DNA of 64,000 nt, taken from positions 186,001-250,000 of the forward strand of contig CAADGV010000033.1 in the NCBI GenBank assembly GCA_900696645.1, written 5' to 3'. The number at the start of each line of letters is the position of its first letter. Position 1 is the stretch's first letter. Shown here one piece after another: positions 31,610 through 51,099 of this stretch. Origin of the DNA: an uncultured Chlorobiota bacterium. GTDB taxonomy: Bacteria > Bacteroidota > Ignavibacteria > UBA10030 > UBA6906. A program made the translations under genes and the position numbers. The notes under the pieces are model-generated. The model saw only the letters and a program-made list of their open reading frames with translations. It had not been told where the DNA came from and ran no database searches.

Positions 31610-31695
31610 GCCAATATGCACAACTTTAGTTGTGTGGGAGCGGAAACAAACGGCGCGTCCAAACAGTGGCCAATACCCACAACTTTAGTTGTGGG
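31610..31695. repeat. Two REP palindromes left of transposase gene 1
   Basis: Two copies of a unit beginning GCCAATA and ending in a palindrome around ACTTTAGT: CACAACTTTAGTTGTG at 31619-31634 and CCCACAACTTTAGTTGTGGG at 31676-31695. They precede the REP-associated transposase gene, and an opposite-oriented partner lies after it. Confidence 0.85.
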
Positions 31696-31754
31696 ACAAA
31701 GAAACGAGAACACAAACAGCCAGTCGTTTTAACGACTTCCGGAAAGGAAGACCA

Positions 31755-32222
31755 GTGGCACACGCGCTAACCAAAGTCTACGTGCACTTTGTCTGGACAA
31801 CGAAGGACAGAGAGCGACTGCTTTTTAATGACTCACGTCAGGCACTCAGGGACCACGTCGCGCAAAACGCACTCGGTAATGGTATCGATGTGCTCGCACT
31901 TGCCGTTCAGCCGGAACATGTACACCTCCTTTCGGAGCTCGGTCGTTCGCAGCGAATCGAGGACATTGCGAAGCTCCTCAAGGGCGAGTCGTCGCACTGG
32001 GTGAACCAGAACAACATCATCGCGCCGAAGTTCTCCTGGCAGCGGGGATACTGGGCCGGGTCGGTCTGCTATCAACACGTTGATGTTGTGAAGGCGTACA
32101 TTGATGGACAGGAAGAACACCATCGTGTCAAAACGTTTGTGGAGGAGTTTGAGACTCTGTTGCGTGAACACGGCTACTCGGAAGCGGAGATCGCCGTTCT
32201 GCTGCGCTTGGAAAGCCGATGA
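31755..32222 (+). CDS. REP-associated Y1 (IS200-like) transposase, copy 1
   Basis: A single-strand HUH-type transposase of about 155 residues. The paired histidines are in QPEHVHLLSEL, and the catalytic tyrosine is in VKAYIDGQEEHH, as in IS200/RAYT proteins; KVYVHFVWTTKDR is the typical N-terminus. I take the GTG at 31755, preceded by GGAAAGGAAG, because the frame upstream (to 31689) runs through REP sequence and is not conserved-looking. It is flanked by ACTTTAGT-type palindromes in opposite orientation. It lies directly behind hsdR and is followed by a diverged copy of the hsdR 3' end. Confidence 0.9.
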   Translation: MAHALTKVYVHFVWTTKDRERLLFNDSRQALRDHVAQNALGNGIDVLALAVQPEHVHLLSELGRSQRIEDIAKLLKGESSHWVNQNNIIAPKFSWQRGYWAGSVCYQHVDVVKAYIDGQEEHHRVKTFVEEFETLLREHGYSEAEIAVLLRLESR

Positions 32223-32238
32223 ATCGGCTGCTTTTTTT
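32214..32238 (+). terminator. Terminator at the end of transposase gene 1
   Basis: AGCCG and CGGCT (extendable to AGCCGAT/ATCGGCT) overlap the stop codon and are followed by GCTTTTTTT. This should end the transposase transcript. Confidence 0.75.
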
Positions 32239-32254
32239 GGTTGGGCACGGGAAA

Positions 32255-32274
32255 CCCACGACTAAAGTCGTGGG
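32255..32274. repeat. REP palindrome right of transposase gene 1
   Basis: CCCACGACTAAAGTCGTGGG, a 20-base palindrome whose centre (ACTAAAGT) is the reverse complement of the left-hand REP centres. The opposite orientation is the usual REP arrangement around these transposases. Confidence 0.85.
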
Positions 32275-37079: not shown

Positions 37080-37541
37080 ATGCCCGGCACCTTCACGCAA
37101 ATCTACATTCAGGTTGTCTTTGCTGTCAAAGGAAGGGAAAACCTGATTGCCAAACAGTGGAAAGACGAATTGCACAAATACATTGCCGGCATTATCAAAG
37201 GCAAGGATCAAAAGCCCATTATCGTTAACGGCATGCCCGACCACATCCACGCATTCATAGGGTTGCGCCCGGCGATGGCATTGTCGGATCTGGTACGTGA
37301 CATCAAGAACAATTCATCCAACTTCATCAACGGAAAGAAATGGGTGAGGGGAAAATTCTCCTGGCAGGAAGGATACGGCGCGTTTTCCTATTCACACTCA
37401 CAGATTGACGCGGTCTACAAATACATCCTGAACCAGGAAGAACATCACAGGAAGAAGACGTTTCGTGAAGAATACTTGAACTTCTTAAAGGAATTCGACG
37501 TGCCGTATGACGAACGTTACCTGTTTGATTGGGTGGATTGA
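37080..37541 (+). CDS. REP-associated Y1 (IS200-like) transposase, copy 2
   Basis: A 153-residue HUH transposase. TQIYIQVVFAVKGR is the typical start, the HUH pair is in MPDHIHAFIGL, and the catalytic tyrosine is in VYKYILNQEEHH. It differs clearly from copy 1 and uses a different REP family (CCGAAGG/TGATTATAG), so the two arrived separately. The ATG follows the REP hairpin AACTCCGAAGGAGTGATAT, which also supplies a GGAG ribosome-binding sequence. It sits directly behind hsdS, as copy 1 sits behind hsdR. Confidence 0.92.
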   Translation: MPGTFTQIYIQVVFAVKGRENLIAKQWKDELHKYIAGIIKGKDQKPIIVNGMPDHIHAFIGLRPAMALSDLVRDIKNNSSNFINGKKWVRGKFSWQEGYGAFSYSHSQIDAVYKYILNQEEHHRKKTFREEYLNFLKEFDVPYDERYLFDWVD

Positions 37542-50560: not shown

Positions 50561-50586
50561 AAAGGCTAACAAGACTGTTAGCCTTT
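50561..50586 (+). terminator. Hairpin after the DUF4412 gene
   Basis: A perfect 10-bp stem AAAGGCTAAC/GTTAGCCTTT with loop AAGACT directly after the stop codon. Its last bases overlap the first of the two 24-bp tRNA-derived repeats. Confidence 0.8.
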
Positions 50587-50606
50587 CTGTACCAAAGGAG
50601 GGACTC
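50583..50606. repeat. 24-bp copy of the tRNA-Leu 3' end
   Basis: Identical over 24 bases to 51007-51030, which covers the 3' part of the tRNA-Leu gene and its trailer. The distance between the copies is 424 bases. It looks like one end (att-like) of a small element inserted at the tRNA gene, with the GIY-YIG gene inside. It is followed by the perfect hairpin CCCCGAACGC/GCGTTCGGGG. Confidence 0.85.
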
Positions 50607-50669
50607 CCCGAACGCGGAGCGTTCGGGGTAAACGAACCTTTACCCCGACTTTGTCGGGGCTCACCCGGT

Positions 50670-50930
50670 TTAGGATGTTTTTGATAAGATGACCTGATCG
50701 AGAAACCTGTGGCCGGGGCCGCTTTTTAGGCATCGCTCTCTCTGTCTGGCTTCGGAACGTGTTGGGACTTGTTCAGAGTAGACAAGTATAAAAGGGCGGC
50801 GGTGACGGGTAGAAAACGTTTTTCCGGAATCGTGCTCATTGATCCGACGCTCAATATCTGATGTCATTCCGATGTAGAGTTTATTGTCCCTAAGCGATCG
50901 AAGAACGTAGACGGTATAGAGGGCTGTCAT
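50670..50930 (-). CDS. Small GIY-YIG nuclease
   Basis: An 86-residue stand-alone GIY-YIG domain protein. The motif is TVYVLRS (GIY part) and KLYIGMTSD (YIG part), followed by the conserved arginine in IERRINEHDSG and a later glutamate in ARQRERCLKSG. All catalytic positions look present. Related stand-alone proteins cut DNA, and some are mobile. The gene lies between the two 24-bp tRNA-Leu repeats, so it is the only cargo of the presumed insertion. Confidence 0.9.
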   Translation of the reverse strand: MTALYTVYVLRSLRDNKLYIGMTSDIERRINEHDSGKTFSTRHRRPFILVYSEQVPTRSEARQRERCLKSGPGHRFLDQVILSKTS

Positions 50931-51013
50931 CTGCGGGTTGCTGAGAGGGATTGGGTCTTGCCACGACGACGCTCCGTCCCGACGTTGGTCGGGAGGGCTT
51001 CTCGAACTTTCTG

Positions 51014-51099
51014 TACCAAAGGAGGGACTCGAACCCTCACCCGGTGTAAGCCGGACTGGATTTTGAGTCCAGCGCGTCTACCAATTCCGCCACTTTGGC
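51014..51099 (-). tRNA. tRNA-Leu (anticodon CAA)
   Basis: The minus strand folds as a class II tRNA: acceptor GCCAAAG/CTTTGGT (one G-U), D-arm with GGTAGACGC, anticodon stem CTGGA/TCCAG with loop CTCAAAA (anticodon CAA), and a long variable arm (CCGGCTTACACCGG). The T arm is GAGGGTTCGAGTCCCTC. The discriminator is A and CCA is not encoded. The 3' end is the source of the 24-bp repeat at 50583. Confidence 0.95.

Follow-up and report, generated by a model that had tools for sequence, protein, structure and literature searches.

In the window, by which we mean the whole 64,000-nucleotide stretch of DNA that was analyzed, a GIY-YIG nuclease gene was found to lie between an intact tRNA gene and a damaged remnant of that tRNA. 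All of these features are encoded on the minus strand, where they are arranged in the order tRNA-Leu(CAA), a 6-nt flank, a hairpin-bearing leader, the nuclease gene, the tRNA remnant, and a terminator-like hairpin. The target gene, an intact tRNA-Leu(CAA) at 51013-51099, was identified by ARAGORN and by a match to the Rfam tRNA model in the whole genome. Its final 18 nt, starting at R57 in the T loop, form together with the 6 nt of flank the proximal copy (51007-51030) of a 24-bp repeat; the distal copy (50583-50606) consists of the T arm, the 3′ side of the acceptor stem, and the flank of the remnant. The leader between the tRNA and the nuclease gene (50931-51006) contains the hairpin TCCCGACGTTGGTCGGGA at 50977-50994. 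The nuclease gene (50670-50930) encodes 86 aa with intact catalytic residues (PF01541, E 2e-16), and its stop codon is a TAA that belongs to the tRNA remnant. The remnant spans about 50583-50675, with the distal repeat as its end, and includes (i) a copy of the variable arm, TAAACCGGGTGAG, at 50660-50672, with one mismatch to 51036-51048; (ii) hairpin inserts at 50606-50659, which read CCCCGACAAAGTCGGGG-TAAA, GGTTC, and GTTTA-CCCCGAACGCTCCGCGTTCGGGG; and (iii) after the second hairpin, GAGTCCCTCCTTTGGTACAGAAAG. This second hairpin starts exactly past GGTTC (C56|R57), while the other insert is placed just before the T loop. The inverted repeat at 50561-50586, found in the sequence and arranged in the same way in L010, is probably the original terminator of the tRNA-Leu; since it lies beyond the distal copy, the insert-free host order would be tRNA then terminator. 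The flanking genes are ordinary and were annotated in the window as encoding a DUF4412 protein and an O6-methylguanine methyltransferase.

The original prediction for this locus was that a GIY-YIG gene had been inserted at the tRNA 3′ end, leaving an exact 24-base duplication of that end and no integrase. The direct repeat is real (start-to-start 424; 18 bases of tRNA and 6 of 3′ flank) and was ruled out as a chance match, for which the expectation was estimated at ~1e-8 per 3 kb. The GIY-YIG open reading frame is the sole gene between the two repeats, and no integrase is encoded within the unit. That the 3′ end of the tRNA is duplicated also holds, but a length of 24 bp falls short of the duplication, as the repeat is part of the hairpin-loaded tRNA remnant. 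Likewise, the position at the tRNA 3′ end is correct for the window but not for the family at large, the elements of which can also precede the tRNA and be accompanied by a duplicated 5′ part.

Loci for comparison were picked by protein similarity alone, from strong to weak matches, and were supplemented by a phylum-wide profile search and one candidate-phylum genome. In the window's genome, seven relatives of the nuclease were detected, six of which have a tRNA gene within their 1.5-kb flanks. Matches were present in 45 of 60 related genomes (up to 13 per genome) and, in the phylum-wide search, in 154 of 247 genomes at E 1e-10; in the genome of the candidate-phylum bacterium, three of the four nuclease copies were located just upstream of a tRNA. 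When distinct copies were considered, 122 of 172 were observed within 250 bp of a tRNA gene, directly after or directly before it, and all 122 were on the same strand as the tRNA; the positional expectation for such proximity is about 1% (roughly 44 tRNAs in 4.2 Mb). The hosts of the tRNA-linked copies are Bacteroidota and a candidate-phylum bacterium, and the linked genes include many different tRNAs of about twelve isotypes. Copy number ranged from 0 to 20 per genome, presence was patchy even inside one genus, and some copies were broken by stops. The remainder of the 172 were mostly further units of tandem arrays, copies at contig ends, and members of separate clades; when non-coding RNA targets were sought for the tRNA-less copies, none were found apart from a single truncated tRNA at the end of a contig. 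Within the same nuclease family, one clade with strong support (99) has no nearby tRNA and mostly lacks clear flanking repeats (L063, L159, L038, L049, L050, L054, and L181). Another small GIY-YIG clade without a nearby tRNA (L102, L106, L110, L111, and L007) resides inside arrays of other dispersed palindromic repeats (e.g., GTCATTCTGAAGGAGCGAAGCGACTGAAGAATCC), with direct repeats flanking the GIY-YIG gene on both sides.

Duplication of the tRNA was observed on either side of the target. In the tree set, 71 copies come after the tRNA, with its 3′ part duplicated beyond the gene, and 59 come before it, with its 5′ part duplicated. By gapped alignment, a damaged second copy of the same tRNA was detected on the far side of 106 of the 125 tRNA-adjacent copies, compared with 8 of 625 for other isotypes and 0 of 125 for shuffled sequence. 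The expectation in the original prediction that the same GIY-YIG family would recur beside other tRNA genes with duplicated ends was thereby fulfilled at many tRNAs. For three loci (L004, L090, and L100), the duplication extends 30-100 nt beyond the tRNA and takes in the host flank and terminator. Judged from sequence alone, the element would be composed of one GIY-YIG gene and a duplicate of some or all of the target tRNA gene. When genome G000 was compared with its sister species G001, with flanking synteny kept, five elements were found to occur in just one of the two, namely (i) those at tRNA-Asp, tRNA-Gly, and tRNA-Val, which were detected only in G000; and (ii) those at tRNA-Cys and tRNA-Pro, which were detected only in G001. 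The window's element is common to both. Empty sites in relatives, which had also been anticipated, were obtained for these five elements but not for the window's own element, as the corresponding site in a third species (G002) has no nuclease gene but carries a remnant of tRNA-Leu in which a double hairpin occupies C56|R57. Hairpin-loaded tRNA remnants without a GIY-YIG gene were also noted at L123, L125, L126, L127, L129, L134, L135, L202, L207, L210, and L211; it is possible that such gene-less remnants are non-autonomous or gene-lost forms.

In a tree of 158 nuclease domains, tRNA isotype was accounted for by 26 changes (76 when shuffled, with a minimum of 69), while host family took 71 changes compared with 88 when shuffled. 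The tree is weakened by few columns and many poorly supported forks; nonetheless, it follows tRNA isotype and so indicates that the lineages are target-specific, and single-isotype lineages were found in different host families. The catalytic Tyr and Arg were conserved in 193 of 193 domains and the Glu in 191 of 193. Values of dN/dS were about 0.1 (0.06-0.22), including the window pair L001/L010, with 0.11 for the window nuclease against the orthologous copy in G001; by this measure the nuclease is under strong purifying selection. Near-exact tandem arrays of three to five units were identified in single-contig genomes (L168, L169, and L170), in which each unit is about 320-450 bp in length and holds a tRNA fragment, not a whole tRNA. 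The unit terminator of L169 is unlike that at the far end of the array, which suggests that the tRNA half is carried by the element.

The inserts in the tRNA remnants were found to be hairpins concentrated at a few sites. Before restriction to in-tRNA positions (n = 139), their mean folding energy was −13.2 compared with −6.4 for shuffled sequences. After restriction (n = 125), 24 were placed exactly at C56|R57 and another 6 in the rest of the T loop; the D loop (positions 14-24) accounted for 38 and the anticodon loop for 21. Double hairpins, either 22 or 30 nt long, are frequent among the inserts and show compensatory changes in the stems (covariation 0.33 and 0.49 versus 0.10 and 0.15 when shuffled) and complementarity at 181 of 188 unconstrained positions. 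A pattern for the 30-nt double hairpin was matched in 23 of 60 genomes with up to 23 copies (control, zero); the pattern for the 22-nt form, which was tied to GTTC...GA, was overly strict and gave 2 matches. Only 11 of 47 hairpin places checked were within 600 bp of a tRNA, the context often being TTC|GAA-like. The copies far from tRNA rule out the hairpin as a tRNA-only feature and identify it as a dispersed palindromic repeat. In L235 (G021:C9:42419-43008), five double hairpins with a spacing of 140 bp occur in T-loop remnants beside a tRNA-Val. Elsewhere in the window, a Y1 (IS200-like) transposase gene at 31689-32222 is flanked by ACAACTTTAGTTGT and CCCACGACTAAAGTCGTGGG palindromes (31619-32274), and a second Y1 gene is located at 37080-37541.

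We consider it probable, with considerable room for doubt, that the window element is a copy of a very small selfish family that parasitizes tRNA genes and is driven by its nuclease; cleavage, mobility, and mechanism are inferred. The original proposal of a mobile unit is supported to this extent, while it has not been shown that the nuclease itself drives insertion. As the nuclease gene is on the tRNA strand, it could be transcribed from the tRNA promoter. The nuclease would then cut its cognate tRNA gene at a loop, whether the T loop (C56|R57), the D loop, or the anticodon loop, and host recombination repair would copy in both the element and a stretch of the tRNA; the cutting, the cut site, and the repair route are our inferences, as is horizontal spread. 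One copy of the tRNA would be kept whole, so that the host survives, and the other would become the far-side remnant. Repeated rounds, or recombination between the repeats, may generate the tandem arrays. Freed from selection on the tRNA, the remnant would acquire, at these same loops, palindromes of the dispersed double-hairpin kind, an entry that is also presumed and not observed. Counting against a parasite are the hairpins that occur far from tRNA and the remnants that are gene-less; moreover, the low dN/dS at the one shared site (L001/L010) would also fit a host function.

The closest precedent is SegB of phage T6, a GIY-YIG nuclease encoded among tRNA genes, for which nuclease activity and phage recombination genes are both required for tandem amplification of the tRNA and segB unit (PMC13096335), and segB is widely co-localized with tRNAs in phages (PMC2988022, PMC13096335). 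The free-standing GIY-YIG homing endonucleases of T-even phages, including SegB, resemble the window family in having a lone gene set among tRNAs, tandem tRNA-nuclease units, and a patchy presence (PMC2988022, PMC13096335). Features of a homing endonuclease are indeed present, namely the GIY-YIG domain with intact catalytic residues and the gene-free alleles at five loci between the sister species. However, the window family differs in its location in bacterial chromosomes, its nuclease of about 85 aa that consists of the catalytic domain alone, its hairpin-loaded tRNA remnant, and its lineages tied to tRNA isotype, SegB having no reported isotype preference. It was not placed in the phage seg family because a separate DNA-binding domain is missing, Pfam detecting only the catalytic domain in the 86 aa. 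A local amplifier similar to SegB, in which a resident nuclease cuts tRNA loci and recombination duplicates tRNA and nuclease in place with little true insertion at new sites, is nevertheless the alternative that we take most seriously, though we judge it somewhat unlikely. The tandem arrays, the host's own flank and terminator within the duplications of L004, L090, and L100, the gene-less tandem tRNA remnants, and the SegB experiments (PMC13096335) are all in keeping with it, but it does not readily account for sister species that differ at individual tRNA loci in whether the gene is present, for one-isotype lineages in different host families, or for the terminator mismatch of L169, which fits an incoming unit. 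Integrative elements that target tRNAs are similar to the window family in preserving an intact target tRNA and in carrying a duplicate of part of that tRNA at their opposite end. The duplication of tRNA ends and the sites in the T and anticodon loops resemble the attachment sites of tRNA-targeting integrases, and it could be argued from this likeness that the units are decayed integrase-borne elements that have lost all genes but one. We regard this as highly improbable, since neither the window unit nor any unit that was read through completely contains an integrase, the same lone gene, which is under purifying selection, is seen with tRNAs of about twelve isotypes, and duplication affects the 5′ part about as frequently as the 3′ part.

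A host function, such as tRNA supply, repair, or defense, with the nuclease merely kept beside the tRNA and the duplication a side effect, would be consistent with a dN/dS of about 0.1 that extends to orthologous copies at one site and with a nuclease that is invariably on the tRNA strand. Such a role is very doubtful given a presence that is patchy even within a genus, the many genomes without any copy, the wide range in copy number, a linked tRNA that varies from copy to copy, and the stop-interrupted copies. It is also conceivable, although improbable, that mobilization of the hairpins and the form of the remnants are due to Y1 (IS200-like/RAYT) transposases, with the GIY-YIG gene as a passenger. 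The double hairpins are dispersed, mostly away from tRNA; Y1 genes are common in these genomes, including the two in the window; and G021 has double hairpins with no GIY-YIG match in the related-genome protein search. Yet the number of hairpins rises with that of GIY-YIG genes (rho 0.70, or 0.53 when Y1 is controlled for), whereas Y1 shows no such relation once GIY-YIG is taken into account (0.06), and Y1 as the better correlate of hairpin number was thus unsupported; these values are uncorrected for host kinship, and 23 genomes with GIY-YIG have no match to the 30-nt pattern. The strand bias and isotype lineages would also be left unexplained by Y1.

No paper was found that links chromosomal GIY-YIG genes in bacteria to tRNA remnants, but subscription journals were mostly outside the search and a prior description is not excluded. 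The parts of the element are known from phage GIY-YIG nucleases among tRNA genes and from mitochondrial palindromic elements; the combination in bacterial chromosomes of target-specific lineages and hairpin-loaded remnants is apparently undescribed, though widespread. The mitochondrial double-hairpin and GC-cluster elements, for which endonucleases have been proposed as movers, share with the window family two back-to-back hairpins, conserved stems, and dispersed copies (PMC4478555, PMC2800124), whereas the hairpins of the window family are bacterial, are placed at tRNA loops in remnants, and are physically linked to a GIY-YIG gene. If the selfish-element reading is right, the family would (i) be among the smallest self-contained mobile units, with one gene of about 260 bp; (ii) illustrate how essential genes can harbor a nuclease that keeps them intact; (iii) account for the recurrence of short GIY-YIG genes beside tRNA genes; and (iv) offer ready-made pairs of occupied and empty sites as well as a bacterial system for the long-standing question of how double-hairpin palindromes spread.

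The closest solved structures to the nuclease are 1zg2 and 1ywl (E about 1e-15), which are UPF0213/COG2827-like, followed by the SLX1 structure-specific nucleases. The UPF0213/COG2827-like small GIY-YIG proteins are of the same size and domain; 1zg2 and 1ywl are annotated as hypothetical single-gene proteins, and the association with tRNA is new in the window family. Without the separate DNA-binding domain of known homing nucleases, a choice of one isotype by the nuclease is hard to explain. The relationship of the bare 86-aa domain to UPF0213 and then SLX1 suggests, although as inference only, that the nuclease may recognize structure, with isotype fidelity arising from repair homology. A broader possibility, which we put forward as speculative and more likely wrong than right, is that small GIY-YIG nucleases are a general engine of bacterial dispersed hairpin repeats, cutting the loops of hairpin DNA, leaving duplications and double hairpins, and radiating into isotype-tied lineages and lineages tied to other palindromic repeats. 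The tRNA genes would then be the most conserved of the loop-bearing hairpin sites, and the system would parallel, in bacteria, the hairpin elements of mitochondria, the mover of which is unknown. Under the proposed mechanism for the selfish element, a restored tRNA would retain the cut site, which leaves self-protection unexplained. Differences in the intact tRNA between occupied and gene-free sites might bear on this, in very few cases: the tRNA-Asp of the nuclease-occupied L004 and L090 differs from that of L130 by one acceptor-stem pair, and the tRNA-Leu of the nuclease-occupied L001 and L010 differs from that of L123 at position 57 at the junction (G versus A).
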